DNA of 64,000 nucleotides from Warburgia ugandensis (Eukaryota; Streptophyta; Magnoliopsida; Canellales; Canellaceae). The number at the start of each line of letters is the position of its first letter. Positions within the stretch are counted from its first letter, which is position 1. Positions 10,605-54,469 of this stretch are shown here, one piece after another. The DNA lies in the NCBI GenBank assembly GCA_035236585.1, contig CP141126.1, forward strand, positions 68,983,414 to 69,047,413, read 5' to 3'. Position numbers and translations under genes: made by a program. The notes under the pieces are model-generated. The model was not told where the DNA came from. It saw nothing but the letters and a program-made list of their open reading frames with translations, and ran no database searches.

Positions 10605-11829
10605 TGGGTTTACAATTAAAAAGCCTTATTTAAAGACTCAAAGGCTTAACTAGTGGATAATAACTCAAAGAAGCCTAAAGGCTTTGGTATAACCAATGAT
10701 GGCTTCTATCACTTCCTAGGTTTTATATGACTTAAATTGACCATAACCTCAAGAGATAATTGGTATACTTTTTTACATGTTTTCTCAATAGTTGACCAAG
10801 ATAAGAATAATGACACAAACTAAGAATTTATGTCCATTAAAAAAAAAAGATTGAATTTATATAAGTCTCAAAAGGAAGAATGTCTTTAAACTCATATGGG
10901 TTACAGGTCTCTACAAATCTTCTTCAGAATCTCTAAGTTATATTTTCTATTCAACTTAATATATATATGGCTGTTTTGTGCAATGGATATCTGACTTTAA
11001 CCTTTTCATGGAGTACTTTATAAAAAGGATAAAATAATAAAATACTTGTATACAAATCTATTAATAATCTAAAGTTCAAAAGATTGGCTGAATATTAAGA
11101 AAATCTAAATTATCATCCTTGTAAAGAAAATTTTCATAAAAAAAAATTCAAAAACTAAATTCAAAATAAATGACTAAAAATTAACTAAGAAAAACTTAGA
11201 CACATCAAAATTTAAATATCCTGCCCCATAGTTAAATTAAACATTGTCCTCAATGTTTTAAGCTGTATAACGTGGATAAATGAAATAATAAACCTAAAAG
11301 GAAAGGGTGCGAAATATAGTACATTCTCTCCTAGGATAGTGCATAGGGCATTGATCTGTTGATATGGACAAAGAAAAATATTTAGTGACTATGAAAATAC
11401 AACACTATGACACCTAACCTAAGCTAATATATTAACCTAGACTAACTATGAAGGAGTTCCTAAAAAACTCACTTCATTTTAGAATTTCACGGTAGTCTAT
11501 GTTCATTTTCCACCCAGAAATATATGTTGACGATAACAATATAGCATGATGGACCACCGCTAAAGAGAATTATTTGGATCAACTTGTGAGGATTGGCCTT
11601 TGATTGGTCAAATTGGGTATTCCAGATACCAACACTAAAAAGAGGAAAAAATTTTAGAGCCTAATTGTCTTATTATAAATACATTAAGCTTAATATCCAT
11701 TCCTTCGAATGACAACTACATGCTTCCATTCCTATAATTAATTATTACATTTGATGTGGCCAAGAACAGCCAACAACTACATGCTTCCATTCCTATAATT
11801 AATTATTACATTTGATGTGGCCAAGAACA
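10605..11829 (-). mobile_element. Element E: post-pol and degenerate region
   Basis: Continues element E to the right of the solo A LTR. The blocks around AAAGGCTT (10,640-10,690) and TGCCCCATAGTTAAATTAAA followed by CATTGTCCTCAATGTT (11,222-11,258) recall non-coding parts of Tat/Ogre-type elements. No reverse transcriptase, RNase H or integrase is recognised between here and the protease remnant, so most of pol seems lost. No gene is supported. Confidence 0.4.
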
Positions 11830-11834
11830 GCCAA
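11713..11834. repeat. Perfect 61-bp tandem duplication
   Basis: Two adjacent identical 61-bp units (11,713-11,773 and 11,774-11,834), each starting CAACTACATGCTTCC. The perfect match inside decayed sequence implies a recent local duplication. Confidence 0.95.
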
Positions 11835-12421
11835 CCCAAAATGACTGGAATTTGACCACTAGGGTTTTGCCAAAAGCTATGTATCTAAGACTAAAAAGTT
11901 CACTAGAAGTAAGAACTTATCAACTTGAACTAGTACATGCTCTACCATGCCATGAGGAGCCTTAACTAATCTATCTACTAATTATACTATGATGGTAGTC
12001 CATTTCATCTTGCTTAAACCTAATTCCTTATATACACAATAAGGTAATAGGCTAAAACTTGACCCCAAATCAAGTAATGCCCTATCATTGTACAGTACCC
12101 ATTCACACATGATATAGTGGGACATCTAAGATCTCTATATTTTCTGTGAGGTGGTCTATTGTAGGATTAGGCTAGCTTGCATTGCAAGATATGCTTTCCT
12201 CTGCACCTAATGTTTTCTCTTATGTGTGTAGAGATTTTTCAAAAGTTCGGAATAAAAAGGGTTGCCTTTGATTGCATCAAGTAATGAAATATTGATATTC
12301 ACCAATTTAAACACACCCATTAACCTATCAAAATTATTTTCCATCTTATTCATTCTTAAACATTTAGGAAACAGAGCCTTTGGAACCTAATGTGATTTCG
12401 GATTAGGGTGAGGGGTAGTAG
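11830..12421 (-). pseudogene. Element E: gag end and aspartic protease fossil
   Basis: On the minus strand this reads as the gag-protease junction of an Athila/Tat-class gypsy element. Recognisable words are FKLVNINISLLDAIK near 12,300, RALLDLGSSFSLLPY around 12,080 (the protease active-site region of this class) and HGMVEHVLVQVDKF around 11,930. The protease would cut the element's polyprotein. The region is decayed with several breaks and its coding partner to the right is cut off by the D LTR. Class assignment rests on remembered family motifs. Confidence 0.7.
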
Positions 12422-13060
12422 TGTAACAACCCTAAAATTTTACTATTCCATGATCAAGTTATGAGCTTTTAGGAAGTATATATTTTAATAGGATACTAAT
12501 TTGGAACTAAAACTAAAACCATTAGATAGTACTTAGAAAATGGAATCCAACAAGCTAAAGAATGCTGAAAACAGAGTCCGAATGAGGAAGTTATGGGACT
12601 TCAAAGTCAAGGCAATATAATAATTAAAAGATAAAAAAAAACTAAGAACATGAAAATGAAATTATAAAATCTGGATTCTACTCATCGATATTAATCCAAC
12701 AACACTAAGTTTGTTGCAATTAGAGATTGGATGAATAAATGGTAATTTTCTTACAAAAGGGTATTTTTGTAATTTTGCTAAGGGGGCCCCACTTGTAGTT
12801 GGAATGTGACATTCAATGGATTTGAAATACATCATTAACTAGTATCATGGTGTTTAAAGTAGTAAAAACATCATGGTTAACAACAAACATAAACTAATTG
12901 AAGGAAAAGAAAAAGGAAATAAAATAATTAAAGGGGGGGCCAGAATTGATACTGGCACCCCCTCCCCTATCACACAATATGTTCTCTAACAGAACAGACT
13001 CAAAAACCCTAACTTCCTTGGCGCTTCGCTCCCTTTCACTAGTATCTTGCACTAGTATTC
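12422..13060 (+). mobile_element. D LTR, promoter-side (U3-like) part
   Basis: Starts like the family-A LTR (TGTAAYAACCC) and has the same arrangement of T-rich and GGGGCCCCAC blocks (near 12,783). At 12,935-12,965 it has GGGGGGGCCAGAATTGATAC followed by TGGCACCCCC, which resembles the reverse complement of the C LTR near 45,450-45,482. No gene is seen. Confidence 0.55.
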
Positions 13061-13795
13061 ATGGTGAAGAAGAAGAATGAATCGAAAGCCTCTGCTTTTA
13101 GCAAGAACAAGAATAAGAAGAAGTAGGGCAAGAAGGAGCTTCTCTTAACAACCAATGCCATGACCATGGAAACCCAGTCTAGTTGAGAACATTCATTTGA
13201 AACCATTTGATCTCATAGGAAATTTGACTTTCCTCTTTGGCATAAACATCTCACTAGTGCAGTCCCAACACAACCGGACTTCTCTGCGTAGCTCATTGTT
13301 GACACAACATGCACAAAACCCCTCTTCTCTAGCAAATGCAACAAAACCCGAAAACCCATTTTCCTCTCCCCTCCTTTTGGATACCTATTGGCACGATGAC
13401 TAGTTTGGCATGGACAGCCAATCGACAGAACCCCCCTCTCGATTTTCTCCTTCAATTAACAAAGCAGGGGGAGCAGTCACTGGCCACACTCCATCGACAT
13501 GCTACCATTCTCCTCTTTGGCAAAGTGCAAAACCTAGGTAGGCAGTCCCAAGTGGTGACTAAGCCAAGGCCCCTAGCCATTGCTGAAACCCACCTTCCTC
13601 TTCTCCCTTTCATTCCCCTTCTTGATTTCCTCTAGCCAGTGTAGCCCCATCAGCATGTCGTCCCATCCTCTTCTTCCTCCGACCATCTACATGCTTGAAA
13701 CCCACCCTTAAGATTTGATTGCCCCCACTACCCAATCCAATGAAGGCTTCATAGATCTGAGATAGCTGAGTAACAAGATCCATCTTCCCAATCAA
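13061..13795 (+). other. Unassigned, more GC-balanced insert upstream of the PPR fragment
   Basis: This stretch does not look like the AT-rich LTR around it. It opens with an ATG at 13,061 followed by a short lysine-rich reading (MVKKKNESKASAFSKNKNKK) that stops after 21 residues. The rest has short frames on both strands (13,197-13,403; 13,336-13,635; 13,213-13,455) without a recognisable domain. It may be leader sequence or further host sequence captured together with the PPR fragment. I cannot assign a function. Confidence 0.3.
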
Positions 13796-13799
13796 TGGT

Positions 13800-14640
13800 C
13801 ATTGATTGGAGACTGGATTACCCGATTTACAACCAATTTGATCATCTCTTGAAATTGGGATTTGAATTTCAAATCTTTGTTAGGTTTGCATTGTTTGAGA
13901 TGTATGCAAAATGTGGAAGTCTTGATGATGCACAGAGAGGGTTGATCAGCTACAAGACCCTAATATGGTGTTGTGGTCATCGATGATTAGTGGGTATGTG
14001 CAGAATGGAGAGAACGAAGAAGCTTTAAACTTATATGGTAGAATGGAGAGTGAGAGTCTTTTGCCTAATGAGGTAATAATGGCTAGTATTCTCAGAGCAT
14101 GTTCTAGCATTGCAGCTCTAGAACAAGGGAGGAAAATCCATTCTCGTGTGGTCAAATATGGACTTGGTTTGGAAGTCTGGGTCAGTAATGCTCTAACAAC
14201 TATGTATGCAAAGTGTGGGAACCTTAATGACAGCAACACCATCTTTAGAAGAATTCCTAGTAGGGATATTGTTTCCTAGAATTCAATGATATCAAGTTTG
14301 TCTCACAATGGGCAAGGTAGCAAAGCTTTAGAACTCTTTGACAAGATGTAGTTAGAAGGCACAAAGTCAGATTCTGTCACATTTGTTAACATTCTTTCTG
14401 CTTGTAGCTAGATGGGCTTGGTCGATAGAGTTTGGTCGTACTTCAAGTCAATGCTCGATGATCATGGAATAGTTCCTAAGATTGATCATTATGCTTGTAT
14501 GGTTGATGTTCTAAGTCAAGTTGGGAAACTTGAGGAAGTTAAGGATTTCATTAAATTTGCCCTCGTGGATCATGGCATGTGCTTATGTCGTATTTTGTAG
14601 CTATTTGTGCTTGGCAGCAATTACTTCAAATACGCTCTCA
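13800..14640 (+). pseudogene. PPR protein pseudogene fragment (PLS class, At2g33680-like)
   Basis: Family proteins bind organellar RNA in mitochondria or chloroplasts. Visible repeats include ALFEMYAKCGSLDDAQR (from about 13,890), VLWSSMISGYVQNGENEEAL (13,968 on), LRACSSIAALEQGRKIHS (about 14,092), NALTTMYAKCGNLNDSN (about 14,185), ALELFDKM (about 14,328) and HYACMVDVLSQVGKLEEVKD (about 14,487), ending in VDHGMCLCRIL near 14,600. Alternating motif types and the phrase VDHG.CL.RIL recall the Arabidopsis At2g33680 group, from memory. A full gene would be roughly 700 codons; about 280 remain, covering the C-terminal half. It is broken: the frame changes near 13,960 and in-frame stops lie at 14,277, 14,349 and 14,409. 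It lies inside the D LTR in the LTR's own orientation, so it was probably captured by the element. Confidence 0.85.
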
Positions 14641-15084
14641 ATTGTGTGAGGATATCAAGAATCCAGAGAAGATTAGCTGGCCGTCTTTGAAGACATTGTT
14701 CCTTTTGAGGTTGTGGTCCATGATATTTCCATGCTCTGACTTCCGCCACATTGTCATGACACCTGCAACCCTTTTGATGTATTAAAGTGCATGGGGTTGA
14801 TCGTGAAGAAGTGGGAAATTAAAGCTAGTGGAATCCGACGAACACGTCACACGAGGTAGGTGGAAATTTAAGACAACATATCTAAATAATAAGATGCATG
14901 TTCTAAACATGATCTTATTTCTGATTGTAGATGTTATGAAGCTAAAATGGTATGATTAATATTTGACATGCTTTAAACTGAAATGATGAAATAATGTTAA
15001 TTAAAAGAATTGCATGTTATAATTGATGCTTATGAATTGTACTTCATGCATGTGAATTATGAAATTACGCTTATGGTACATGGG
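14641..15084 (+). mobile_element. D LTR sequence after the PPR fragment
   Basis: No convincing PPR repeat continues beyond about 14,640. AT-rich LTR-like sequence follows a donor-like motif at 14,853 and runs to the ATGGG target site (15,080-15,084) of element A. Confidence 0.5.
14853..14863 (+). other. Splice-donor-like motif in D LTR
   Basis: GAGGTAGGTGG, counterpart of the A-family motif at 6,851. The PPR fragment lies upstream of it, that is in the presumed first transcribed segment of the LTR. Confidence 0.4.
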
Positions 15085-15932
15085 TGTGATGACTTGGGTT
15101 TTTGTAACATGTTTTGTAATGTATTTTGAAAGGCAGGGCCCTTAATAGTGTAAATTTTTTTTGCAAAACCAAGCAACAGAAATTCTTTTCTTTTGAACTT
15201 GTTTTGTAAAACCCAAGTCATCACTTCATGCATAACATAAGTAGAATTTTTTGTACAAGATAAAATTCCATTGAAGGAATATACTTTTATTAAATCTCTA
15301 AGATCCATCTAATGGTTCACAGTACAGCCAAATCTATTACAATACTTGTCCAAATTACATAATCCAAAACTCAAGCTCACCATACAATAAAACTCTCAAC
15401 AAAGCAAAATACATGTCTTCAAGGGTATACCTTGAAGATTATTCTCTTCAAGTCTTCTATCATCTTCAGCTCCTAACTCTCCTTCCCTGTATCTGAGATA
15501 TTGCAACATTTACAATATCTCAGCAAGCAATGCTTGGTAGGGGATTCAAGAAGCATATTAATTCAAAAGGTAATTCCAATACTTCATAATCCCATTATCC
15601 CTAAACATATTCATGTCTCTACTCTTTACTTTGTAAGTTATGTACATCCATATACAAACATACAACACATTGGTAAATCAGTTAAATTTATGAAAGTAGT
15701 CAAATATCATACCCAACTAAGCTGTTCAATTCTCTCTATTATGAGAATTTAGTATTGTAGCTAATCTTACACTGGGAATTTCCCTTCCTGGGAAATATTG
15801 GTAATATACAATTACCTAGCATTTCACTATGCCTATTCTCATATGCATCATAGTGCAAAATAATCAAAAGGGCTACCATGTCATAGCCTCGATCCGTACT
15901 GGTCTTACTGGGATAATCGCCTGTTCACCGCT

Positions 15933-18520
15933 GATACTGTCATGACCCGGGTTTTTATATGATGCAATTTTGATAAAAAGGCGAGATCTCTTATTTTGTA
16001 AGTATGAAATGCATGAAAATCTTTTTCATTTGGAAAACTATCTTTCATAAAAACCCTGAGTGTCAAAACACATTCTCAATTTATCTAGCCATGGCAAAGT
16101 TTAAATCAATATTATTCCCAAGAAAGTGTTAGTCATAGCCCCAGCTATTAGAGAGTAACTGCAATCAAGTAACGTTGAAAGATAAGGTAGGGGTTTTACT
16201 TACTTGTACTTAGTCTGGGTGGTTCCTAGCACAAGCGTTCCTTGCCCTTAAGTATTTACTTGGTGTCTGAAAAATGTTGAGGATTGGGTGAGTATATACT
16301 ATACTCAGTAGGAGCCTATCACTACTAGTTTTATAATGCATGAGATGTTTTAAAATCATATGCTCATTCAAAATATGTGTATGTTTGAATACTCAAGTGC
16401 AACATCGATATTAAAATCCATTGTTAAACTGAAATACTAACGACTTAAAGGATCATATAATCCAAAATCGAAAGTATCATATACATATGTATCATAACAT
16501 CATGATATGCATAAGATGCTTCATGGAATCCAACTCATGGATCTCTAGTATGCTATGGTCGACCAACCTCATCTCATGCCATATGCAATGCACATAAATC
16601 ATCAAACCATAGGGTCCACTATGCCCACGACCTCCTCGCCGTGTGGTCCCCGGGTACCTGAGGACACGTCGACCCAGTGCCGTGACACCAATGGTAGCCC
16701 CTTGTACCACATGCAGTTGACGTAGGGACTTGCCTCTTTTTGGGCGTGGTACCCATCCACCTAATAGTGGTAGAGGCCGGGTGACCAACCCAGACCCCTC
16801 GGCATAGCACCCACGGGCTTACTAGCCCAAATCACATAAGATCAAATAAGCAAAAACCTCTTTTCAAAACCTGTCCTCTTTAGGTCCCTCACAACTTCCT
16901 GGCACTCGGCACTCCAGCGTCTTTTGGCAACCCTCAAGGACATGCAATCTTTGCAAGTACTTAAATTATGCAATGTATGCACTTGTTTGCAAAACATATA
17001 TGTGCATAATGTATATGCAATCATTTTACAAAACATGTCTATGTACAAAGCATTTATCATGCATGCTGAATTAAGTCATGCTAAACAAGTCATATATATT
17101 AAAACATATGTTCTTAAAATAATAATAGTTCTTTTAAAAGAATCTAATAGTGATAGAGCACCTACCTGGCTAGGTCGCGCTAACCCTTTTGTCCTCGGAC
17201 GCTCATGATCATGGTTTGGGGAATCAAGGTTAGTTTGGCCTATTTTTTATGGGTTGTAGAGTAATTTTTCTTATTACTTAGGCATTAGGGATCCATCCCT
17301 ATGCCTATGGGTGTCCTAAGGTCCTAATTGGGCCTTGGTATCCTCAGTTTTCCAAAGTTCTAGTGGCCATGCGCCACCATCCTCTTCTAAGGGTCATGCC
17401 CACCTTTGATTGGGCCTTTATCAGAGATTTTATAGTTTGGATGTGTCCACATCGTCGACACGGACACAACGCCTTTTGCGGCGCCTCAATCGGAGCTCTA
17501 GATCTCATGTTATAAGCGTTTTAGTGTCGCATGTACATAGAGTCTTAAGAATGAAAAAAAACGGAATGTTAAGGCGCTGCGCGACTACGTTGCCCTGGCT
17601 TCCTTAAGGAACGAAAAACCTGCAGCGCTAGTGCACTACGCATTTGGGTGTGCGCCTCAATGGGCGCGTCTGTAGACGCGCCAGGTTTTCCACCACCTGT
17701 CCCTTTTGCGGGCGTGTCCCTGGACGCGCCCGTTTGGTTTTTCAAACCGGGATCGACGTGTGACGTTCCTATTGGATCGTCTTGTTCGTTGGGGAACCGG
17801 GGCATCCTCAGGACACCCTGGTTTGACCCTGTGGAACCAGTGCAACCCAGGGGACGTCCCTGGGTCCTTGGTGAGTCTTTAGGGCTCCATTTTGCATGGT
17901 TTTTCATGCAAAAACTTAGGAAAATTGACCATGGAACTATGGCGGAGATGGGTTTTGAGGGATCTTGGGCGTACCTGGCTCATTGCTGGGTTTTTCTCAT
18001 TGTTTTCCCCTCTAGGTCACTGCTCCATGACGGGTTGTTCTTCAACGTTTTGGGCTGCCATTAGAAGCGCCCAAGAGCTCTATTTATACAGCTAAGAGAG
18101 GGTTCTGGAGGGGGCTCTCATTGCCTTTGAATGGCGGTGGAGAAACCTCCAGAATGGCTGTGATTTCTCCTCCAATCACTGCCGTTCTAGAACCCTCTAG
18201 AGGTTGAAGATGAAGGGGTGCCCGTATCAAAACGGGCCCCTGTGTTTTGCAGGTTAAAACCGTTTTTGTAAAAATGACAATTTTGCCCCTGAACTTCAAA
18301 GAGCCATAACTTGCTCATTTTAACTCCGTTTTGGGTGATTTTGGTCTTGTTGGATTCTTTTTTCTGAGACGCATCAAATGGAACCATTTTGAGGACCAAA
18401 TTCTTAGGTTCAGTCAAGGTGAATAGTGAAATGACTAAAATGCCCTTATCTTAAAAAACTGATCTTTTCATTGCTAAACTTGGAATTTCAATATTACAAA
18501 ATTGGAGTCATTACAGATAC
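15933..18520 (-). mobile_element. Solo LTR of family B, TSD GATAC
   Basis: The LTR is 15,938-18,515 (2,578 bp), starting TGTCATGACCCGGG and ending GGAGTCATTACA on the plus strand. GATAC flanks both sides. The interrupted family-A sequence reads on across the insertion in the same order as the intact copy around 37,255. It has a TATA box at 18,081-18,088, a donor-like motif at 17,159-17,168 and a CpG-rich block at about 17,440-17,860. Confidence 0.95.
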
Positions 18521-20879
18521 CATAATGAAAAATATTATGTCACTGCCCATATGGAGGGACAGGACTTTCACAGTGGTAGCCTTCCCATAATTGCCCCACT
18601 CGACTTGTAGCCTCTCATAGGGCAAGGTACCATTAAATCATCAAATTTCAAGGAGCGAGTGGCCAAACCCTTATAACTCCTCTAGCATAGCATCCCCCTA
18701 GGCTTATGCCTATTAAAACAAACTCACAAGCCTCCAAGCTTGTATTTAAAATAGATTTCATACATATCAGACCATCTGCCTATTTACTTAGGGCTGAAAT
18801 ATTTTCTAGTTCCCTATTCACTTATGGTCTAATCCTTAACCATCTTATATGTGTTTGGTTGGATCATAAGGTTTTCAAGAGATTTAATACAAGTATTAAC
18901 ATTACTCTTGTCAACATAAGGTCATGAGCTCAATCGTGTATATCCCATGTAAATGCATTCATCAAATCCTCCTACCTTCAAGGAGTGATCTCTTTTCCCA
19001 AATCTTCCATTATCCTGACTGATGTATGTAATCTGTACATCCATACATATTGTCAATATATAGATTATGAACAATCCTATTAATCACTAGATCTGATATT
19101 TAGAATGATCTTTAGATCATTCAAACCTAAGTCTTTGTGTGTCCATCTCCTTGATCTTAATCTTTCATAGATCCATTGATTGACAATCTACACATGTTGA
19201 TAAAGATCAAGGTCCTAGATCTTCTCACATCTAGTTCTTCTGTGATCTAAGTTCAATTGTTAGATCATCCCTAAGGAGGATGATCTTGGTTTTCTTCCTT
19301 GAATCATCTTTGATCAAGGGTTTGGATTATCTAATCTAATGAACTAGAACATGCATACTAAGTACAATATAATATTCTTTTTCTTATTATTCTTGATCAT
19401 CCAAGATCTAATGGATCTTGTTTGATCATATTTATCTTTCTTACAATTTTTATTAGGGTTAGGTAATTTACCAACCTTTTATGCTCTTACTATTATTATT
19501 CAACCAGTTAATGTTTTGCTGGTTGAAAGTAACTTATTTAAGCCTAAGTCTAGACTGCTCCTCTTATTTCCAATTGGCTAAGGCTTACTAGCTAAATGAG
19601 TGAACACAAAGTGGTTACTTCAATCCTCATGTAAGGAGGCATTTAGACCTCACAAACGTCAACAGAAGGTAGGGGAAGAGTGAGGCTCTATTAGATAACC
19701 CCCTTAACCACTATGTTCAACATTCACTAGAATGACCATAGCTCAACCTTTCATAAAGTTCCTATAAGCATGTTAACCCTAAGTACTCTTTCTAATAGAT
19801 TTTAATTAAGTCCATGAATATTTACAATGTCATTCATGGGGTTTATTATTCCCCTAGTTTGTGCCAAGGATTTGATAATCCTTATATTGTCCTACTAACT
19901 ATAGCTCTTACTAATTAAGTCCAAAATACTCCATTCTTATTTGTGTCATAAAACTCTACTTTCTCATTAGATCCCATTTTTGGTGTTTTATGCTCTTTAT
20001 CTCATAACAAGTAGACGTACTAATAAAATTTAGCCATAAATGAATTATAAATTCAAAGCATAAAACTACTTAATTGAACACTTAATGATAATGAGGCAAG
20101 GTACTTAAAATTACAATAGCACGATTTCCAACTAATATACCTTAATGAGTCAATTTAAACTGACATGGACCTTAGGTATAATCTCATACTATAGTATAAT
20201 CTTATATGAAATTCTAGCATGGTCCTAAGTTACAATGGCATGAAATCATACTAAAGTGCCGCTAAGATAATTAAATCTAGCACCCTATGATAACAATATA
20301 ATCACATATCATGTTAAAGTCTAAAAGTTACACTAGCATGCTTTATAACATAAATCATATTTAAGATGCCATTAAGGGTCTTAGTTATATTTAAGGGGTT
20401 TTCTTTATTAAGGTCCAAAGATCATATTGATCCATTTTTGTCATAATTCATCCATGATTTCCTTGGATTTCATCATATCAACATCCATTCCATCCATCCC
20501 AAGATCTGGTCACACTTGATCTTATTGATCAAGTGGGTCCCTTTGTAATTTTTAGGATTTTTCTACCATAATGGGTAGATCGCTTAATATCTCATAGATC
20601 TGTCCAAATAAATCATTTTTATAACTTTATTTCAATATTATATTATTATTAAAACATATCTCCAAGATCTGATCATCTTAGATATTGAAGATCTTGGCAA
20701 TTGGAAACTTGATTCCTAAATACAAAAATTTGTATTATATATTTTCTCCATTTTATCATTTCATAAGAAAATAAAGGTTGTAAGCTTTCCATAGCCTCTT
20801 TCTGATCTCGATTTGGAGATCATATGACTCCAGAATCAGATATGGAAGTTCACAGTCATTCCTAGGGCCTAGATTTGAT

Positions 20880-21240
20880 TTGTGCCCAACGGAATGGATG
20901 GCCCAGATTTTTCGGGCATAAATGAGCTGGGCGGAACTCTCGGTTCATCGAGCCCATCCATCGCAAAGGTGATACGGATGCTCCCTCTCGGGACGTCCAC
21001 AGACGTGCGCTAGATGAGCAGAACGCTCATCGTCACGCGGCCGTAACTGCAATGCGAGATGGGCGCGTTCACTTGATTTGGTTACAGAAGCGTAGTCGTC
21101 CCACTTGGGACAACGTCCCACGTGAAGTGCACGTGTGAAAACGCTTCCGCGTGCGGCATTTCCATACTGCGTCGCGCCGAGCGTCTTGGGCCCCATTCGA
21201 TCAGGAGATTGGATAGTCCATTCTTGACCATCCAATCAAT
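20880..21240. other. CpG-dense cassette in A LTR
   Basis: GC-rich block with GGACGTCC, CACGCGG and GGGCGCG words, between the segment ending near TGTGCCCAAC and the segment with TCAATTGA. It matches the cassette position of other A LTRs but differs in internal sequence. Frames through it (20,945-21,235; 21,122-21,346) are composition artefacts. Confidence 0.7.
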
Positions 21241-22452
21241 CCTCTATCAATTGAAGGCCCAAAACTTATCCGATCTTTGTGAAAATTCTATCCTAGGGGT
21301 TTTGGACCTTTCTAGATCGATTGGTATGGTCAGAATTGTTATCTAAGAACACCATCATCTTGAATTAAAGGTTCTATTGTTTACCTTATTTTTACCATTT
21401 TTATTACCAAAATGAAATTACAGTAAAATAAAATTTTCATAAAACATTAGTAAACATGTCCAAGAAGCATTTCCACCTACCTGATTGGAGAAAAAATGTT
21501 GGTTATATGTCCAATTCAAAAGAATACCCATTTGGTGAAGATATGGCCCAAGATCCACTTTTTTTGCAAATTCCTGTTCTTTGAACCGTTGGATCTCAAA
21601 ATTTCTTTGGGGTTTTTGTAGATAAGGTATGGTGGGAAGTTTTGGATGGTCAAATTTGTGATATTAGTTCTGGAACAGAGTGCCTAATTGATTTTAAGTC
21701 TCTTGTTCCAATCTAGAGAAAAATGAAAATGAAAAGAGGGAGATCTCTTGAGAGTTTTTGGTTTCTGGGGATGGATCTAGGTCTAGATTTATAGGGGAAG
21801 TGAAGAAAATTTCATGGGATTTTTATGAACATTTTTGGAGGATTTTTGGGGTTGTATTTATAGGCATTTTGGTCTTCTTTCATGATGATATGCATTAATG
21901 ATGGTTAATTTTTTATTATTAAATAAGCATTGGATTCTCCCATTCTCCACCTACTTCCCCAAGACCAGCTGGTATGGTTTGTCCCATGATTTCACCTGGG
22001 ATGGCCATAGGATTCATTTTTGGGTCCCTTGTGGGCCCCATGTGGGCCCCACATGGTGTAAAAAGACCATTTTGCCCTTTATATCTTAAAAAAATTAGGA
22101 TTTATTCCCATGATTTCGAAATTGAGCGTACTTAGTGGCGCTGGATTCGTATTTCTTAGTACATTCTAAATTTTGATGTCTCAGATTTTGATTTTTGGGT
22201 AAAATTACTATTTTACCCTTTTGTCCAAGAAATGAAGAAAATTAAGGATTTTTCATCCGAATTTAGAATTTGTCGTGCTTACAATCATTCTGAAGGGTTT
22301 GCTAAGTTTAATTTCAATTGTACATGTCTTATTATTTGGTTATAATTTTATAAGAAGTATATTCTAAATAATCCTAATATTTCAGCCCAAAATTTCTGAA
22401 ACTCAAACTTTATTGATTTTCTCAATCAATTACAAAATTTGAGGTTATTACA

Positions 22453-22492
22453 ATCTTCCCCCCTTACAATAATTTTGTCCTCGAAATTTGTA
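22453..22492 (-). other. Element A polypurine tract and flank
   Basis: The minus strand reads GTAAGGGGGGAAGAT just before the 3' LTR, preceded by AATTTCGAGGACAAAATT. The purine run is the usual primer for plus-strand DNA synthesis. The flank at 22,471-22,489 matches the B element at 55,496-55,514 in 18 of 19 bases. Confidence 0.85.
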
Positions 22493-22501
22493 ATACAATA
22501 C

Positions 22502-23083
22502 TTAATCAAACAAACTAGGGTGTGTCTTCCTCATTTCTATTTTGATTTCCCACGTGGCTTCCTCAACAAAGCGATGTTGCCACAGGACTTTGACTAACGG
22601 AATGCTTTTGGTCTTTAACTTCTGTTCTTTGCTGTCCAGAATTCGTATTGCCTTCTTTTGGAAGGTTAGGTTAGGCTTTAGCTCTTCTGGCACCCTTTGA
22701 AGTACATGAGTGTCATCTTGGAGGTATTTTCTTAGCATAGACACATGAAAGACACTGTATTTCTGAGAGTTGGGGTGGTAAGGCTAATTTGTAGGCCACT
22801 GAACCAACTCTTTCTAAGATTTCAAATGGCCCAATGAATCTAGGACTAAGTTTTCCTTTACTTCCAAACCTCATTACTCCTTTGACAGGTGATACTTTTA
22901 GAAATACGTGCTCCCCCACATCAAATTCTAGGTTTCTATGTCTTTTATCTGTGTAAATCTTTTGTCGACTGCGTGTTATTAACAACCTCTTCTGTATCAA
23001 TCTGACCTTGTCTACACATTGTTCCACTAGTTCTGACTTTATCAGCTTTCTTTCTCCAACTTCACTCCAACAGGTTGGTGATT
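22502..23083 (-). pseudogene. Element A integrase C-terminus and chromodomain
   Basis: On the minus strand the first part (23,083 to about 22,760) is the integrase C-terminal region, with KIYTDKRHRNLEFDVGEHVF and FIGPFEILERVGSVAYKLAL, the GPF/Y-type module of gypsy integrases. Then comes a chromodomain (about 22,690-22,502) with LVKVLWQHRFVEEATWE, the fold that in chromoviruses directs integration toward heterochromatin. The region ends about 30 bp before the polypurine tract, as expected for the end of pol. The rest of integrase lies beyond the nested solo LTR, starting at 27,452. Broken fossil. Confidence 0.9.
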
Positions 23084-26000
23084 GACATTGAGACAACCCA
23101 GGTTTTTGAAACACATTTTATAATATATTTTTCAAAGGCAAGGGCGTCCCCTCAGTAAAAAATTTTTGCAAAACAAAGCAGTGAAAATTCTTTTATTTTA
23201 AAACTTGTTTTGAAAACCCAAGTCACCACTTCATACATAACATAAGTACAATTTGTGTACAAAATAAAATTCCATTGAAGGAATATGATTTTATTAAACT
23301 TCCAGGATCCATCCAGTGGTTCACAGTACACAACCCATTGTATCCTTACAATACTTGTTCAAGTACACAATCCAAATTACAAAGTTCTAAATACAATATA
23401 TGCTCTCAATACAATGTTTCAAGGGATATACCCTAATTACTTATTCTTCAATAGTTCTTCAAGTCTTGAGCTCCTAAGCCTCCTTCTCTATATCTGAGAT
23501 ATTGTAAACATTCGAACATTTACAATATCTCAGCAAGTTATGCTTGGTAGGGGATAAGAATGTAAGTTATTGACAATAAAATCTCAATATTCAACTATCC
23601 CATAATTCATTCTATCATAAACACATTCACAGACCACTATTATTGATATGAACATCTCATTTCCTTATCATTTGTGTTCACCTTTATACATACATATTAT
23701 ATAAGAACAAATCTGTTAAAATTGTAAAAATAATCAATAATCATTTCCATACAAAACTGATCAACTCCTTTCATTATAAGAGATTTGTATCTCAGGCAGT
23801 TACTATATTAGGATTTTCCTTTCTTGGGAAAAATATTGGTAATTTACAATTACCTGGCATTTCATCATGCCATCCCTTAAGACATTTCATTATGCCAATT
23901 TCATATGCATCATAATGCAAAATAATCAAGGACTACTATGCTTGCAGTCTGATCTGTACAGCGCGCTCGGATAACTGTTCAATAATCCCCTTATACCATT
24001 TTCAGTGAAAATTACAATATCCATGTCCATATGGGAGGACCATGGCTGTCACAATGGTGGCCTTCCCATAATTGCCCCACCTGACTTTTAGCCTTTCTTA
24101 GGCTTGGTATTCAATATCATCAAGTTTCAGAGAGTGGGTGGCCAAACCCTCTTAACTCTTCTAGCATAGCATCCCTAGGCCTATGCCTATTTAAAACAAA
24201 ACCACAAGCCTTCAAGCTTGTATGTAAAATAATACTTATACATATCAGACTATTTGTCTGTTTATCTAGGACTGGAATATTTTCTACTTTCCTATTCACC
24301 TAGGGTTGTTCTCAATTCTCAACTTAACCATTTAATACTTATTTTCCTCATCATTTGGTTGGATCATATTTCAATTTGAGGTATTTACCTTAATATATTG
24401 GTATCATACATGTCAATACTTCAAAACATAAGATCATGTATTAAACATGTATCTTCATGTAAAGGTATTCTTAATAATCCACCTACCTCAATAAGGTATT
24501 CTTACTCCTTAAAATCTGCCATAGTCTCGATCACTATATATATCTGTCAAATCGTATGCATAATGTCATTTTTCTAATCAAGGGTACATACTACATGGTC
24601 TTTTGATCATCCTATATCCAAGGGTTTAATATCATCTATACAAATACTATCTATATCATACATAACAATCTAATCGACATTGATGTTTCTTTTTCCTTAT
24701 TGTTTTTTATCATACAAGATCTCATCTTGTTTGATCATCCTTATCTTACTTACTATTTTTATTAGGGTTAGATAATTTGCTATCTTTTTATGTTCTTATT
24801 ATTATTCAACCAGTTAGTGTCTTATTTGGTTGAAGATGATTTATTTCTTCCTATTACTAGACAACTCCTCCTTATTTTAGGATGACTAGTACTTACCAGT
24901 TAAAGTCTGCTCAAAAAGTGGTTAATACAACCCTCATGTAAGGAGGCGTTTAGACCTCTCTTACGTCAATGGGAGGTGAGGGAAAAGCACTTGGCTCTTG
25001 TATACCCCCTATAACCACAATGTTCAGAGTCCACTATAGTGGTACTAGTTCAACCTTTGACAAGGTTCCTATGACCTCTTTACCTTAAGTCCCTTCTCTA
25101 ATTGATTTTAATTAATTTCCATAGATATGCACAATGTCATCCATGGATGTTCATTATTTTCCTACTTTGGGCCAAGGAAATGATAAATCATTCCTTATAT
25201 TGTCCTACTAACTATAGCCCTTATTAAGTCAAAATCATTCATTCATCTTAGTTGTCCATGAATCTCTATATTTCATTAGTTCATATTTTTGGTGATTTAT
25301 GCTCCTTATATCTTAACAACTACTTAACAATTGAATAAAATTTGACAATAAGTAAATCATCAACTTGAAAGCATAAATCAAATATAAGTTTAACAACTAT
25401 ATACTAACATTCTTCCTATGAATGTAACTTAAGCTAGTGAAATCAAACTAACATGATCCTAAGTTATGAAACACATCTTCTATCATAATGAAATCATTTT
25501 TAAATCTTAATTTACACTAACATGATCCTAAGATAATCAAATCTACTAACAAATTACTCATTTAGGACATATCATACTAAAATTTAAAGATTACACTATC
25601 ATGCTTTCTAACTTAGAACATAAATCACATTTACACTTTTATATCCAATAAAATACAATTAAACTAATTATATTAAGATTATTATAAACCTTTAAATATG
25701 ATCCAACCATTAGATCTTAGGTGTTTTCCTTTAGATCAAGGGTTTTAATTACCTTTAGGGCTTTTAATCTATTAAGATCCAAAAATCATATCCACTTGAT
25801 TTTGTCACATTTCATCCATGATCTAACTAGATTCCATCATAATATCATCCATTTAATCCATCCCAAGGATCTGATCATACTTGATCTCATTGATCAAGTG
25901 GGTCCCTTTGTATTTTTAGGGTTTTTCTACCATAAAGGGTAGATCTCCTAATTTATCCCAGATCTGTCCAAATTAACCATAGATATTACTTTATTATACT

Positions 26001-27456
26001 ATTATATCATCATTAAAATAAATTTCCAAGATCTGATCACCTTAGATCTTGAAGATCTTATAAATTGGACACTTATTTCCAAAATACAGAATAATTCAGG
26101 AATAATTTTTAGACATATTATGACTTCATTAGAAACTAGACATTACAAGATTTCCATAGCTTCTTTCTGATCTAAATTTGAAGCTCATATGACTCCACAA
26201 TCTTAAATTGAAGTTTACAGCCGTTCCTAGGGTCCAGATTTAATCTAGGCCCAACAGAACTAATCTCTCTCAATTGAGGGTCCAAACCTTGTTAGATTTT
26301 CTTAAAAATTATACCCTAAAGGTTTTTGACCCTTCTGGATCGATTGGAAAGCTCAGAATTTCTATCTGAGCTCTCTATCACCATGAATTGAATGCTCTGA
26401 TATTTACTTTATTTTTACAATTTTTCATTCAAATTAAATTGCAGAAAAATAAAAATTACACTAAACCATAATAAATATGTATAGGAAGTAGTTCCACCTA
26501 CCTAATTGGACAAAAAACATATATTTGATGCCCAATTTGAGAGAATTACTGGTTGATGATAATATAGCCCAATTGTCCCCGTTTTTGTGATTTTCTGTTG
26601 TTGGAACCATTGGATCTTGAAATTGATTTGGGGTTTTTGTATATACTGTAGTATAGGATGTTATGGATGGTGAAATTTATCAGATTATACCTGGAACGGA
26701 GTGCCTAATTGAATTTAGGGCTCTTGTTCCACTTAGAAAGAGGAGAGAGAAATAAGAAAAATAGAGATTGGGGAGGGATGAATGAGAATTTGGGGCTGAA
26801 ACTGCAAGGAAGATTTGAAAATTTTGTGGTTAAGGTTGTGAAAATTTTTGGAAATTTTTGGGACATATTGATAGCCAAATTTGAATTTTTTATTATTTCT
26901 TTTGATAAGATATTTTATTACTTTAGAATTTTTAATTGCAAATGCACTCTCCATTCCCATCCCATTCTCCACCACAATCTCCATTACCAGCAATAATGCA
27001 CTGAGCAATTATTGTTGCTTCTAGAACGTTGGCCCACTTTGTGGGCCCCACTTTTATGTGAAAAGACTTTTTTGCCCTTTGAACTCCAAAATTGGAGAAT
27101 AATAGGCAATATTTGTCCGAACTTGGAATCGAACGTACTTAGTGGCGTTGGAATCGTATTTCTAAGTACTTCATGAATATTGAGGTATTATTTCTTGGAT
27201 ATGGAATATGGGTAAAATTACCATTTTACCCCCAAATAGAGAAAATTAAGGAATTTTAACTCAGAATTGAACGTACTTAATGTTGTTTCGATCAGTTTTC
27301 CAAGTACATCCATAATTTCTATGTTTTAATTCATGATATAATCTCCATAAAAAGAGAATTTTCAATAACCTAATATTCCAGCCCAGAATTTCTAAAAATT
27401 CAAACTTTATTAATTGGCCTTAATAAGTTACAAAAATTCAGGGGCATTACAGACAT
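23084..27456 (-). mobile_element. Solo LTR of family A in the integrase region, TSD GACAT
   Basis: The LTR is 23,089-27,451 (4,363 bp), beginning TGAGACAACCCAGG and ending GGGGCATTACA on the plus strand, with GACAT on both sides (23,084-23,088; 27,452-27,456). No interior remains. It is more diverged from the other A LTRs than they are from one another and lacks their CpG-dense cassette (around 26,250-26,265). It has a donor-like CACCTACCT at about 26,495. Frames at 25,721-25,942, 26,709-26,996 and 26,733-27,008 are chance frames in LTR sequence. Confidence 0.95.
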
Positions 27457-30119: not shown

Positions 30120-30981
30120 TAGTAGTGTGCCTTCAATCAACGCATTGGATGGTCCAGCTTGGTCATTAGTGATGGCGAAGACCCTTCCTTGGTGTCGAGG
30201 GGCAATTTCTAGTTTTGCCTGCTTGACTGCTAATGGTTTGGTATAGTAGGTGGCGACATGTCCATACTCCCCACAATTGTGGCAATTGATTGGAAATCAT
30301 TGTGGTTGTTGTTGTATAGGTCACGGGAAAATATTGCCTTGGTGAAATTTTCTACATCTTGGACATGGCTGTCTATTTAGCCTTGGTGCATTGTTCCTCA
30401 GATTTCTTTGAGGCTTAAAATTGTTCCAAGGTCTTTTATTGTTCTACAAAGGCCTTGGGTTATTGTTTCCTCCTCCACTGAACTTGATAATTTGACCCTT
30501 TTTATATTCTTCTTCAAACTTGGAGGTCATTTCCACACAGTCTGCCAAGGTAGTGGGTTTAGTACCCAGCACCTTTATTTTCAGCCCTAGGTGTAGCCCT
30601 TCAATGAATCGATTCACAGTGTGTGTTTCTATGTTACACACATGAGTCGCGAATCTCCTTAATTGTGCGAACTTCTTATCATAGTCCACCACAGACATAT
30701 TCCCTTGCCTTAGGTCCAAAAACTCTATCAACTTCCTTTCTTGTACATGAGAAGGGAAATATTTATGGTTGAATACTTCCTTAAATTCCTCCCATGTAAT
30801 ATCTTCAAAATTTGATAAGAAGGTGTTGTTAGCTGATCTTCACCAAAATGCAGCTTCTTGTTTGAATAAGTATGTGGCAAATTTCACCTTTGACTCTGGA
30901 GGAGTACGTAGTGCACCGAAAGTCTTTTCTACTTCATATATCCATTCCTCAGCCTTCTCAGCTTCACCCTTGCCATTATAT
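30120..30981 (-). pseudogene. Element A gag, C-terminal two thirds
   Basis: Minus strand. Capsid-like region at 30,731-30,444 with QGNMSVVDYDKKFAQLRRFA and NRFIEGLHLGLKIKVLG, typical of the gypsy retrotransposon gag family, then a zinc-knuckle region near 30,250-30,300 (NCHNCGEYGHVA). Gag forms the particle and binds element RNA. The region is split from its N-terminal part by the solo LTR starting at 30,982. Confidence 0.9.
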
Positions 30982-33900
30982 TGTGACGACCCAGGTTTTT
31001 GTAACATGATTTGTAAAGTATTTTGGAAGGCAGGACCCTTAAGAGTGTAAAATTTTTTCGCAAAACAAAGCAGTGGAAATTCTTTTCTTTAGAACTCGTT
31101 TTGAAAACCCAAGTCACCACTTCATACGTAACATAAGTACAATTTGTGTACAAAATAAAATTCCATTGAAGGAATATACTTTTATTAAATTCCAGGATCC
31201 ATCCAGTGGTTCACAGTACAGCCAAATCTATTACAGTACATGTCCAAATTACATAATCTAAAACTCAAGCTCACCATACAATAAAACTCTCAACAAAGAA
31301 AAATACATGTCTTCAAGGGTATACCTTGAAGATTATTCTCTTCAAGTCTTCTATTGTCTTTAGCTCCTAACTCTCCTTCCCTATATCTGAGATATTGCAA
31401 CATTTACAATATCTCAGCAAGCAATGCTTGGTGGGGGATTCAAGAAGCATAATAATTGACAATGTAATTCCAATACTTCATAAACCCATTATCCCTAAAC
31501 ATACTCTTTACTCTTTACTTTGTAAATTATGTATATTTATATACATACATACCCTTCATGGGTAAACCAATTAAATTTGTGAAAGTAATCAAATATCATT
31601 CCCAACTAAGCTGATCAATTCTCTTCATTTTGAGAATTTAGTATTACAACTAATCTTATACTGGGAATTTCCCTTCTTGGGAAATATTGGTAATATACAA
31701 TTACACAGTATTTTATTATGCTACAACATAAGGCATTTCACTATGCCTATTCTCATATGCATCATAGTACAAAATAATAAAAAAGGTTGTTATGCTGCAG
31801 TCTGATCCGTACTAGCACACTCAGATAACTGCCCTATTCACCACTGATATCACAATGGAAAATATTATGTCACTGCCCATATGGGGGGGCAAGACTTTCA
31901 CAGTGGTGGCCCTCCCATAATTGCCCAACCCGACTTTTAGCCTCTCTTTGGGCAAGGTATCATGATATCATCAAATTTCAAGGAGCGGGTGGCCAAACCC
32001 TCATAACTCCTCTAGCAATAGCTTGCCCCTAGGCTTATGCCTATTAAAACAAACTCACAAGCCTCCAAGCTTGTATGTAAAATAGATTTCATATATATCA
32101 GACTATATGTCTGTTTACTTAGGGCTGAAATATTTTCTAGTTCCCTATTCACTTATAGTTTAGTCCTTAACCATCTTATATGTGTTTGGTTGGATCATAA
32201 GGATTTCAAGAGATTTAATACAAGTATTAACATTACTCTTGTCAGTATAAGGTCATGAGTTCAATCATGTATATCTCATGTAAATGCATTCATCAAATCC
32301 TCCTAGCTTTAAGCAGTGATCTCTTTTCCCAAATCTTCCATGATCCTGACTAATGTATATGATCTGTACATCCATACGTATTGTCAATATATAAATTATG
32401 AATAATCCTATTGATCACTAGATCTAATGTTTAGAATGATCTTTAGATCATTCATATCTAAGTATTTTTCTATCTCTAAGTCTTTGTGTGTCCATCTCCT
32501 TGATCTTGATCTTTTGTAGATCCATTGATTGATAATCTACACATGTTGATAAAGATCAAGGTCCTAGATCTTCTATCATCTAGTTCTTTTTTGATCTATG
32601 TTCAGTTATTGGATCATCCCTAAGGAGGATGATCTTGGTTTTCTTCCTTGAATCATCTTTGACTAAGGGTTTGGATTATGTAATCTAATAAACTATTACA
32701 AGCATACTAATAAACATGCATACTAAGTACAATATAATATTCTTATTTTTATTGTTCTTGATCATCCAAGATCTAATGGATCTTGTTTGATCATCCTTAT
32801 CTTACTTACTATTTTTATTAGGGTTAGGTAATTTACTAACCTTTTATGCTCTTATTATTATTATTCAACCAGTTAATGTGCTAATTGAAGGTAACTTATT
32901 CAAGCCTAAATCTAGACTGCTCCTCTTATTTCCAATTGGCTAAGGCTTACTAGCTGAATGGGTGAACATAAAGTGGTTACTTCAATCCTCATGTAAGGAG
33001 GCGTTTAGACCTCACAAACGTCAATGGAAGGTAGGGGAAGAGCGAGGCTTTATTAGATAACCTCCTTAACCACTATGTTCATCATTCATTAGAATGGCCA
33101 TAGCTCAACCTTTCATAAGGTTCCTATAAGCATGTTTACCCTAAGTACTCTTTCTAATGGATTTTAATTAAGTCCATGAATATTTATAATGTCATTCATG
33201 GGGTTTAATATTCTTTTCCTAGTTTGGGCCAAGGATTTGATAATCCTTATATTGTCCTACTAACTATAGCCCTTACTAATTAAGTCCAAAGTACTTCATT
33301 CTTATTTGTGTCATGAAACTCTACTTTCTCATTAGATTATATTTTTTATGTTTTATGCTCTTTATCTCATAACAAGTAGATCTACTAATAACATTTAACC
33401 ATAAATGAATTATAAATTCAAAGCATAAAACTACTTAATTTAACACTTAATGATAATAAGGCAAGGTACTTAAAATTTCTCTAACTTATTTCCAACTAAT
33501 ATACTTTAATAACTCAATTTAAACTAACATGGACTTAAGGTATAATCTCATACTATAGTATAAACTTATATGAAATTCTAGCATTGTCTTAAGTTAGAAT
33601 GGCATGAAATCATACTAAAGTGCCTATAAGATAATTAAATCTAGCACCTTATGATAATAATGAAATCACATATCATGCTAAAGTCTAAATGTTATACTAG
33701 CATGCGTTATAACATAATCATATTTAAAATGCTATTATATAAAATGAAAATAATTACATTAACATTTTAAGAAACCTTTACTTATGATCCAACCATTAGA
33801 TCTTAGATCTTTTCCTTTGATTAAGGGTATTAGTTATATTTAGGGGATTTTCTTTATTAAGGTCCAAAGATCATATTGATCCATCTTTGTCATAATCCAT

Positions 33901-35909
33901 CCATGATTTCTTGGATTTCATTATATCAACATTCATTTTATTCATCCCAAGGATTTGATCACACTTGATCTCATTGATCAAGTGGGTCCCTTTGTATTTT
34001 TAGGGTTTTTCTACCATAATGGGTAGATCCCTTAATGTATCTCAGATATGTCCAATTAAACCATAGATATCACTTTATTTCATTAGTATATCATTAGTAA
34101 AACATATTTTCAAGATCTGATCATCTCAGAGCTTGAAGATCTAGGAAATTGGAATCTTGTTTCTTTAATACAGAAAGTTTTACTGAATATTATGTTCATT
34201 TTATCATTTTATAAAAAAATAGAGGTTTCAAGCTTTCCATAGCTTCTTTCTAATCTCAATTTGGAGTCCAAATAGCTCCGAAATTTGATCTGAAAGTTCA
34301 CAGTCCTTTATAGGGCTTAGATTTGATCTAGGCCCAAGGAATGGATGACCTAGATTTTTCGGGCAGAAAACCAAGCCGGCGGAATGCTCCTGCTCGTCGG
34401 GTGCGTCCTCTACAATAAACTTAGAAAGCGCCCTCATGGGGCATGCACGGACGCGGACGGGATGAGCGGGATGCTCGTTGTCCGCGTGCCCGTAAATAGG
34501 ACGCTCATCGGGTGCGTCCGCTCATTGTTTTGACGGATGCGCCGTCATGCCGCTTGGGAGGACGTCCCACCCACAGCGCGTGTGAAATGTTTCTGCGTGC
34601 GCTGTTTTTGATGGTACGTCACGTGTGTGTCTTGGGCGCTGTTAGATCCGGAGATCGGACAGTCCATTCTGGACCGTCCAATCAATCCTCTCTCAATTGA
34701 GGGCCCAAAACGTCTCCGATCATTGTGAAAATTCTACCCTAGGGGTTTTGGACCCTTATGGATCTATTGGTCAGTCAGAATTTTCATCTGAGCACTCTGT
34801 AATCTTGAATTAAGGGTTCTGTTATTACTTTATTTTTACCTTTTTTATCATTAAAATAAATTACAGTAAACTAAAAATTACATAAAATAGTATTAATCAT
34901 CTATAAAAAGTATTCCCACCTACCTGATTCGAGAAAAAAACCTTGGTTATATGCCCAATTTAAAAAGAATACCTTGTTGATGAAGATATAACCTAAGATC
35001 CACCTTTCTTGCAAATTACCGTTGTTTGAATCATTGGATCGTGAAATTTCTCTAGGGGTTTTGTAGAGTAGATATAGTGGGAAGTTTTGAACGGTGGAAT
35101 TGGTGAAATGAGATCTGGAATAGAGTGTCTAATTGATTTTAGGTCTCTTATTCCAATCTAAAAAGAAAAAGGAATTGAAAAGAGAGATATCTCTTGGAAA
35201 TTTTGGGTTTTTGGGTAGGGATCTAGGTCTAATTTTTTAGGGAGAGTGAAGAAAATTTCATGGGGATTTTATGAGTATTTTTGGAGGATTTTTGGGGTTG
35301 TATTTATGGGCATTTTGGTCTTTTTTTCATGATTATAATATTTAGTTATTTATTATTAAATGGCATGAAAGTCTCCCATGCTCCATTTTTCTTCTCCAAG
35401 ACCAGATGGTGTTTGTTGACCCATGACTTCATGTGGGCTACTCATAAGATTCATTTTTGTGTCCCTTGTGGGCCCCATGTGGGCCCCACATGGTGCAAAA
35501 AGATCGTTTTGCCATTTATGTATAAAATTTTGGGTTTTATTCCCATGATCTCGGATTTGAGTGTACTTAGTGGCGTTGGATTTGTATTTCTTAGTATATT
35601 CTAAATTTTGATGTCTCATATTTTGATTTTTGGGAGATTTTGATTTTTGGAAAAAATTACTATTTTACCCTTTTGTCCAAGAAATGAAGAAACCTAAGGA
35701 TTTTTCATCCAAATTCAGAATTTGTCGTGCTTACAGTCATTTTGAAGGGTTTGCTAAGTTTAATTTTAATTTTATATGTCTTATTATTTGATTATACTTT
35801 TATAAAAAGTATATTCTAAATAACCCTAATATTTTAGCCCGAAATATCTGAAACTCAAACTTTATTGATTTTCTCAATCAATTACAAAAATTGGGGTTAT
35901 TACATATAT
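30977..35909 (-). mobile_element. Solo LTR of family A in gag, TSD TATAT
   Basis: The LTR is 30,982-35,904 (4,923 bp), beginning TGTGACGACCCAGG and ending TTGGGGTTATTACA on the plus strand. TATAT is found at 30,977-30,981 and 35,905-35,909. No interior remains. Donor-like motif at 34,917-34,926. CpG-dense cassette at about 34,340-34,700. It is the longest A LTR here and useful as the reference. Confidence 0.96.
34340..34700. other. CpG-dense cassette in A LTR
   Basis: GC-rich block with many GGACG, GTCCGC, GCGTCC and CGTCC words between AT-rich shoulders. The short frames here (34,228-34,437; 34,512-34,700) are composition effects. Confidence 0.7.
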
Positions 35910-36369: not shown

Positions 36370-36384
36370 GGCTCTGATACCAAT
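36370..36384 (-). other. Element A primer-binding site (initiator tRNA-Met)
   Basis: The minus strand reads ATTGGTATCAGAGCC directly after the 5' LTR. TGGTATCAGAGC is the standard complement of the 3' end of plant initiator tRNA-Met. Confidence 0.95.
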
Positions 36385-39300: not shown

Positions 39301-40676
39301 TTGATTTGGTTATAGAAGCGAGGTCGTCCCGCTTGGGATGATGTCCCATGCACAGCAAACGTGGAAATGCTTCTACGTGCAGAGTTTCCGTACTGCGTTG
39401 CGCAGAGCATCTTGGGCCCCATCCGATCAGGAGATTGGACAGTCCATTCTAGACTGTCCAATCAGTCCTCTATCAATTGAGGGCCTAAAACTTATCCGAT
39501 CTTTGTGAAAATTCTACCCTAGGGGTTTTGGACCTTTCTAGATTGATTGGTATGGTCAGAATTGTCATATGAGAATACCATCATCCTGAATTAAAGGTTC
39601 TATTGTTTACTTTATTTTTACCATTTTATTACCAAAATAAAATTACAGTAAAATAAAATTTTCATAAAACATTAGTAAACATGTCCAAGAAACATTTCCA
39701 CCTACTTGATTGAAGAAAAAACATTAGTTATATGTCCAATTTAAAAGAATACCCTTTTGGTGAAGATATGGCTCAAGATCCACCTTTTTTGCAAATTTTC
39801 GTTCTTTGAACTGTTAGATCTCAAAATTTCTTTGGGGCTTTTGTAGATAAGGTACGGTGGAAAGTTTTTGATGGTGAAATTTGTGATATTAGATCTGAAA
39901 TAGAGTGCCTAATTGATTTTAGGTCTCTTGTTCCAATCTAGAGAGAAAAAGAAAATGAAAAGAGGTAGATCTCTTGAGAGTTTTGAGTTTTTGGGGATGG
40001 GTTTAGGTCTAGATTTGCAGGGGAAGTGAAGAAAATTTTGTGGCATTTTTATGAACATTTTTGGAAGATTTTTGGGGTTATATTTATAAGCATTTTGGTC
40101 TTGTTTCATGATGATATGCATTAATGTTGGTTAATTTTTTATTATTAAATAAGCATTGGATTCTCCTATTCTCCACCTACTTCCCCAAGACTAGCTAGTA
40201 TGGTTTGACCCATGATTTCATGTGGGCTGGCCATAGGATTCATTTTTGGGTCTCTTGTGGGCCCCATGTGGGCCCCACATTGTAAAAAGATCATTTTGCC
40301 CTTTATATATTAAAAAAATTAGAATTTATTCCCATGATCTCAGAATTGAGCATACTTAGTGCCGTTGGATTCGTATTTTCCAGTACATTCTAAATTTTGA
40401 TATCTCAGATTTTGATTTTTGGGTAAAATTACTATTTTACCCTTTTGTCCAAGAAATGAAGAAAATTATGGATTTTTCATCCGAATTCAGAATTTGTCAT
40501 GCTTACAGTCATTTTGAAGGGTTTGCAAAGTTTAATTTTAATTGTACATGTCTTATTATTTGATTATACTTTTATAAGAAGTATATTCTAAATAACCCTA
40601 ATATTTTAGCCCAAAAGTTTTGAAACTCAAACTTTATTGATTTTCTCAATCAATTACAAAAGTTGGGGATATTACA
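36385..40676 (-). mobile_element. Element A 5' LTR
   Basis: 4,292 bp, beginning TGTGACCACTTGAG and ending GGGGATATTACA on the plus strand, flanked on the right by ATGGG. It is shorter than its partner because about 0.6 kb present in other copies (for example 32,530-33,120) is missing near 37,935. Promoter TATA octamer at 40,081-40,088. CpG-dense cassette at about 39,110-39,470. Confidence 0.94.
40081..40088 (-). promoter_or_regulatory. TATA box of element A 5' LTR
   Basis: TATAAATA on the minus strand, same place as in the other A LTRs; would drive the element's genomic RNA leftward. Confidence 0.6.
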
Positions 40677-42223: not shown

Positions 42224-42228
42224 AGTAT

Positions 42229-51726: not shown

Positions 51727-51734
51727 TATTTATA
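51727..51734 (-). promoter_or_regulatory. TATA box in B 5' LTR
   Basis: TATAAATA on the minus strand inside a palindromic context (AGCTCTATAAATAGAGCT). The same site occurs at 18,081, 47,386, 55,054 and 60,268. Confidence 0.7.
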
Positions 51735-54444: not shown

Positions 54445-54469
54445 GTGTCCGCGTCGTCGACACGGACAC
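54445..54469. repeat. Short inverted repeat in B LTR
   Basis: GTGTCCG and CGGACAC arms around a CGTCGTCGACA centre. A close variant occurs in other B LTRs, near 17,443, 51,128 and 59,627. Confidence 0.6.

Follow-up and report, generated by a model that had tools for sequence, protein, structure and literature searches.

Within the window (the whole 64,000-nt stretch of DNA that was analysed) lies an LTR of about 4.2 kb, here called D, which carries coding sequence from two host genes joined inside it. Judged by its sequence it is read as a solo LTR left by an old retrotransposon, now split in two by a later insertion; a comparison of the window with itself found no second D LTR, and a single D is thus in view. 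Its parts, the host fragments and the neighbouring elements are collected in Table 1.

Table 1. Features of the D LTR and of the elements around it, in window coordinates.
Feature	Position	Strand	Remarks
D LTR	12422-15084 + 40682-42223	+	about 4.2 kb, in two parts
Native 5' part of D	12422-12980	+	starts TGTAACAACC; homology to B, A and F LTRs
NOP14 N-terminal coding fragment, likely	13061-13228	+	from its ATG; 3 in-frame stops
C-rich segment	13259-13845	+	about 590 bp, between the NOP14 start piece and PPR
PLS-class PPR coding fragment	13846-14597	+	about 750 bp; one frame change, 3 internal in-frame stops
NOP14 mid-protein coding fragment	14588-14779	+	64 codons, no stop; Pfam PF04147
Native D resumes	14780-15084	+	aligns with F and A4; contains donor-like GAGGTAGGTGG
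Insertion splitting D	15085-40676	-	A-family LTR complex with nested B LTR
A3 LTR	15085-22455	-	A family, B LTR nested inside
A4 LTR	23081-27452	-	diverged A family
A2 LTR	30980-35906	-	A family
A1 LTR	36383-40676	-	A family, in the insertion splitting D
Native 3' part of D	40682-42223	+	ends GTGTCACA; colinear with A LTR ends
LTR F	42760-45750	-	about 3 kb; both ends related to D

D begins with TGTAACAACC at 12422 and runs to GTGTCACA at 42223, with TG..CA ends present, and its outer flanks, AGTAG and AGTAT, are equal at four of their five bases and differ at the fifth. When these flanks are joined, with the five flanking bases kept once, they continue as a single minus-strand frame through a gag-protease-like region, an agreement of frame that chance alone would give one time in three; stops lie near the joint, two and one of them within 40 residues on its two sides. 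Since the joined flanks keep one frame of an older region, the borders of D look real, and D itself looks like a genuine insertion. Relics of that older region, the apparent target of the D insertion, occupy 11600-12421 and 42229-42760 of the minus strand. The name gag-protease comes mainly from the look of the sequence, since the Pfam match in the left flank, to an aspartyl protease, is weak and falls below the cutoff (E 0.013).

The 25.6-kb complex that splits D has a perfect ATGGG duplication on its two sides, inside D, and A1 and A3 are its outer LTRs. These two are separated by a K2P of 0.083, and either of them from A2 by more (0.169, 0.135). D is older than this insertion; at plant substitution rates, a K2P of 0.083 corresponds to a few million years in fast genomes and to more in trees. 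In its arrangement, the complex resembles the three-LTR template-switching complexes described by Sabot and Schulman (PMC1950507), and A2 could be a separate insertion. Four copies of the B-family LTR stand in a row on the minus strand at 46146-60696, with K2P values of 0.05 to 0.18 among them, and a fifth is nested in A3.

Sequence native to D can be recognised on both sides of the host fragments. On the left, D 12498-12636 is colinear with the B LTRs and 12611-12795 with the A LTRs, while the GC-rich block at 12917-12966 is similar to one in LTR F (82%); an alignment of D 12693-13020 with F 1-344 was also obtained. The score of D 12422-13060 against F was reached by one of 200 shuffles, and that of 12860-12990 by none of 200 (against A4 and A2, the latter interval was matched by 84 and 189 of 200), and 12981-13060 taken by itself does no better than chance against F (33 of 200). 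Since 12860-12990 stands above its shuffles and 12981-13060 does not, native sequence has been counted to about 12980. The 5' end of D gave no match among the viral contigs.

On the right, D 14780-15084 scores above all 200 shuffles against both F and A4 (15 of 200 reach its score against A2), and for the short interval 14780-14870 taken alone, the number of shuffles out of 200 that reach the score is one with F, 109 with A4 and 13 with A2. The start of this right-hand aligned block varies with scoring from 14720 to 14795; recognisable LTR sequence thus ends near 12980 and is back at about 14780-14795. From 14853 to 15026, D is colinear with A4, and the splice-donor-like GAGGTAGGTGG at 14853-14863 recurs at the aligned place in A4, with GAGGTAGGCAG there in F. 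Beyond the splitting insertion, D 40786-41205 is 72-79% identical to the A LTRs and D 41583-42224 is 61-64%. This stretch of about 400 bp, which keeps its 72-79% between D and five A LTR copies against 61-64% for the remaining shared 3' sequence, is a conserved module common to the otherwise diverged D and A families.

Between the left and right anchors lie about 1.1 kb in F and about 1.8 kb in D, and the F interval has no counterpart in D. With the related LTR F as a guide, the chimeric tract apparently replaces the native leader of D; replacement rather than insertion is less than certain, since F is a diverged guide. F, which serves as the guide for the missing native leader, has two donor-like motifs of its own, at about 45219 and 44235 of the window.

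The presence of PLS-class PPR coding sequence within D was the core of the original prediction, and structure and Pfam matches both bear it out, with LTR sequence on either side; the predicted orientation also holds, the matches being on the plus strand, which is the sense of D. A stop-free piece of 116 residues (13929-14279, plus strand) matches PLS-class PPR structures, with 29 distinct structure sequences at E 0.001 or better. The best of these is 9kfx (whole-sequence E 6.5e-104 summed over repeats, with a best single stretch of 110 bits), and PLS9-PPR, 5iww, matches at E 1.6e-63. In Pfam, the same piece matches PPR at E 6.6e-12, in a scan of open pieces that left out one PPR piece of 19 residues as too short. 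Read across the frame change with X at the stops, the fragment as a whole is identical, without gaps, at 146 of 251 residues to the C-terminal part of what we take to be the sequence of Arabidopsis At2g33680. The fragment is host PPR coding sequence in LTR sense inside D, and it measures about 750 bp rather than the 840 bp or so first proposed. Because of the frame change and the three internal stops it encodes no intact protein now, and any spreading of the tract with D lies in the past, this copy having decayed. Searched against viral contigs, the PPR protein gave seven pattern matches, with one contig confirmed, the IMG/VR contig L001, where a stretch of 23 residues at 912-980 is 57% alike to the PPR piece.

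Directly downstream lies a piece of the host gene for NOP14. In the open frame 14555-14785, 64 residues match Pfam Nop14 (PF04147) at profile positions 522-585, and the match was found again when whole frames were scanned; a weak match (E 0.0035) joins the same piece to the Nucleolar protein 14 chain of 7mq8. Among prokaryote genome contigs, the NOP14 piece gave 134 pattern matches and none was confirmed. A second piece is likely to be the N-terminus of the same protein. The ATG at 13061 starts a lysine-rich frame, and its residues 1-56 align, from the first residue on, with what is presumably the N-terminus of Arabidopsis NOP14, at a local score of 79 that none of 2000 shuffles reaches and that ranks top among 3990 six-frame chunks of the window. 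With BLASTP, 12 of 26 residues are identical to the same presumed reference. The piece has no match to Pfam Nop14, only one to Ground-like below its cut-off (E 0.023), and no match among the structure sequences.

The tract therefore reads, in order, NOP14 start, C-rich stretch, PPR and NOP14 middle, the two NOP14 pieces following the order of the gene and all the recognised host pieces lying in LTR sense; by profile position, about 500 NOP14 residues are absent between the two pieces, and the PPR fragment stands in their place. The capture of a host PPR gene thus stands; as a capture of PPR alone it does not, since NOP14 is present as well (Pfam E 4.2e-17) and the chimera joins at least two host genes. 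Of the span 13061-14863, under which the PPR fragment was first described, 13846-14597 is PPR, with likely NOP14 at 13061-13228, C-rich sequence at 13259-13845 and NOP14 again at 14588-14779. It had also been placed between a promoter-side part and a splice-donor-like motif; the native 5' part and GAGGTAGGTGG do lie on its two sides, with the promoter role of the former putative.

Compared with F, A4 and A2, the C-rich stretch scores no better than shuffled sequence (150, 139 and 125 of 200 shuffles, respectively, reach its score). It has no Pfam match in the five of six frames covering it, in a scan of 12422-15086 that took one forward frame whole, the others to 502 of 888 and 521 of 887 residues, and two reverse frames to 730 and 739 of 888. 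At the other end of the PPR fragment, PPR homology extends to 14597 and NOP14 homology starts at 14588, giving a 10-nt overlap, TCGTATTTTG. An 8-mer, TCACTAGT, flanks the NOP14 start piece at 13036 and 13251 and occurs nowhere else in 12900-14900, a pattern noticed post hoc. The direct 9-mer GTGAAGAAG, present at 13064 and 14803, lies close to chance expectation (0.36 in mononucleotide shuffles). For comparison, eight forward translations of other LTRs in the window (A2, B5 and F) gave no Pfam family at E 0.1, a partial control of one copy per family on the forward strand that took in three frames of A2 (811-817 of 1066 residues), two of the three frames of B5 (527-528 of 633) and three of F (423-433 of 582-583).

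As to how the chimera arose, we favour, at about even chances, reverse-transcriptase template switching onto host mRNAs in the leader of D. While copying the leader of a presumed D transcript, the enzyme would have switched at about 14780 from the element RNA to a co-packaged NOP14 mRNA, passed from there to a PPR mRNA across the roughly 10 nt of shared sequence, gone on through the C-rich stretch from the PPR mRNA to the 5' end of NOP14, and returned to the element RNA near 12980-13060. If the chimeric stretch lay in R/U5, strand transfer would have carried it into both LTRs at once; later recombination between the LTRs would have left a solo LTR, which would then have decayed neutrally. Under the standard retroviral scheme, a mistake made while the 5' leader (R/U5) is copied would be doubled at once. 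The separate steps have precedents: Sabot and Schulman describe how jumps occur from one co-packaged RNA to another and how terminal segments come to be copied into each of the two LTRs (PMC1950507), TRIM elements are described as having captured exons alone from several genes (PMC4717578), and abnormal template switching is reported for BARE-2 LTRs (PMC13317346).

Template switching is favoured by the sense orientation and the NOP14 gene order, both as expected of one polymerase moving along an mRNA, together with the overlap at the junction, the 8-mer on either side of the NOP14 start piece (noticed post hoc), the apparent replacement of the leader and the lack of transposon ends in our scans. 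Short shared sequence at a junction is also a mark of end-joining repair, and this is a point against template switching. With a single D copy in view, moreover, the presence of the chimera before the insertion of D is not proven. The event could then have followed that insertion, a double-strand break in the leader being repaired by filling from several ectopic templates, which would make the mosaic private to this copy. We regard such repair as rather unlikely, though with only one copy in view it fits nearly as well as template switching: the mosaic structure, the short shared sequence at the PPR/NOP14 junction, the F interval between anchors that has no counterpart in D, and the single D copy all agree with it. 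Not expected of filler is that the recognised pieces are all coding and all in LTR sense, with two from one gene and in order, though with three pieces the statistics of this argument are weak.

A Pack-type DNA transposon or a Helitron, already carrying the NOP14 and PPR pieces, might instead have inserted into D. In maize, Helitrons account for 1194 captures and other DNA transposons for 462, against at least 189 for LTR elements (these 189 or more captures having given 425 gene-capturing LTR elements), and under the conditions of Baucom et al. no maize LTR element was found to hold pieces from two or more standard nuclear genes (PMC2774510). Two inverted 9-mers, at 12970/14641 and 13155/14570, also reach across the tract. 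Simple scans, however, found no TIR (at least 10 matches in 14, mismatches allowed) with an 8-10 bp duplication around the host fragments, and no Helitron-type end (a hairpin followed by CTRRT) on either strand of 12900-15086, in searches limited to 8-10 bp duplications that degraded ends or duplications of other lengths could escape. Insertion footprints of the chimera's own, which would have spoken against the original prediction, were thus not found by these scans, and with F as guide the native LTR is replaced rather than interrupted. We consider a carrier of this kind unlikely, and less likely than either template switching or repair. That the LTR reading is wrong, and that what lies here is a host locus in decay that has received retrotransposon pieces, is very improbable: the start and middle of NOP14 do lie in gene order on one strand, but LTR homology is colinear on both sides with TG..CA ends, the joined flanks continue one gag-protease-like frame, and about 500 NOP14 residues are missing between the pieces, with a PPR fragment there instead.

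The capture in D is real and somewhat unusual, in that two host genes are joined inside an LTR, in one decayed copy. A two-gene chimera in this position would point to errors of strand transfer in the leader as a route of capture, one which would double the cargo at once and may put it under the LTR promoter. It is possible, though we hold it doubtful, that D represents a multi-copy LTR family and that the NOP14-PPR mRNA chimera, the product of a single faulty round of leader-strand synthesis, became part of the LTR itself. In such a family the chimera would be doubled in every new copy, the leader of each transcript would be host-gene sequence from the NOP14 start codon on, and small RNAs might be seeded against both a ribosome-assembly gene and a PPR gene. 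A single decayed LTR is a lead only. For maize Helitrons, Pack-MULEs and Sireviruses, captured sequences have been described as giving rise to silencing small RNAs (PMC13317346).

Host-gene capture by plant LTR retrotransposons is well known. The PPR domain PF01535 is among the ten LTR-captured domains most frequently detected in rice and sorghum, though under-represented there against the genome (PMC3726574). The maize element Bs1, which holds pieces of three host genes (PMC13317346), and the other gene-capturing LTR elements of maize (PMC2774510) resemble D as plant LTR elements with host gene pieces; the parts of those accounts drawn on here describe the captures within the element and do not place them in the LTR, whereas the D chimera lies inside it. 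In the literature matches listed, as far as those sources extend, no protein-coding capture placed inside the LTR was met, nor any chimera of protein-coding genes inside a plant LTR, the nearest case being Turmoil-1 of C. elegans, a mobile element whose terminal repeats contain pieces of two protein-coding genes; there the repeats are inverted and the host is an animal (PMC2572040). The TRIM element GmaRetroS15, which has 5-bp duplications, likewise brings together fragments of several genes, exons only, but TRIM captures occupy the internal region of elements 1,172-1,449 bp long, not an LTR of about 4.2 kb, and all but two are reported in at least two copies, against one copy of D in the window (PMC4717578). 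Cassandra, Helenus and Ajax share with D host-derived sequence in the LTR, doubled in each copy (PMC10853983, PMC10886601), which in their case is a 5S rRNA or tRNA gene acting as promoter and in D consists of fragments of protein-coding genes. BARE-2 is like D in the route proposed, with foreign sequence brought into its LTR by abnormal template switching (PMC13317346; model in PMC1950507), and differs in the donor, which there is the retrotransposon Wis-2 (PMC13317346) and for D would be host mRNAs.
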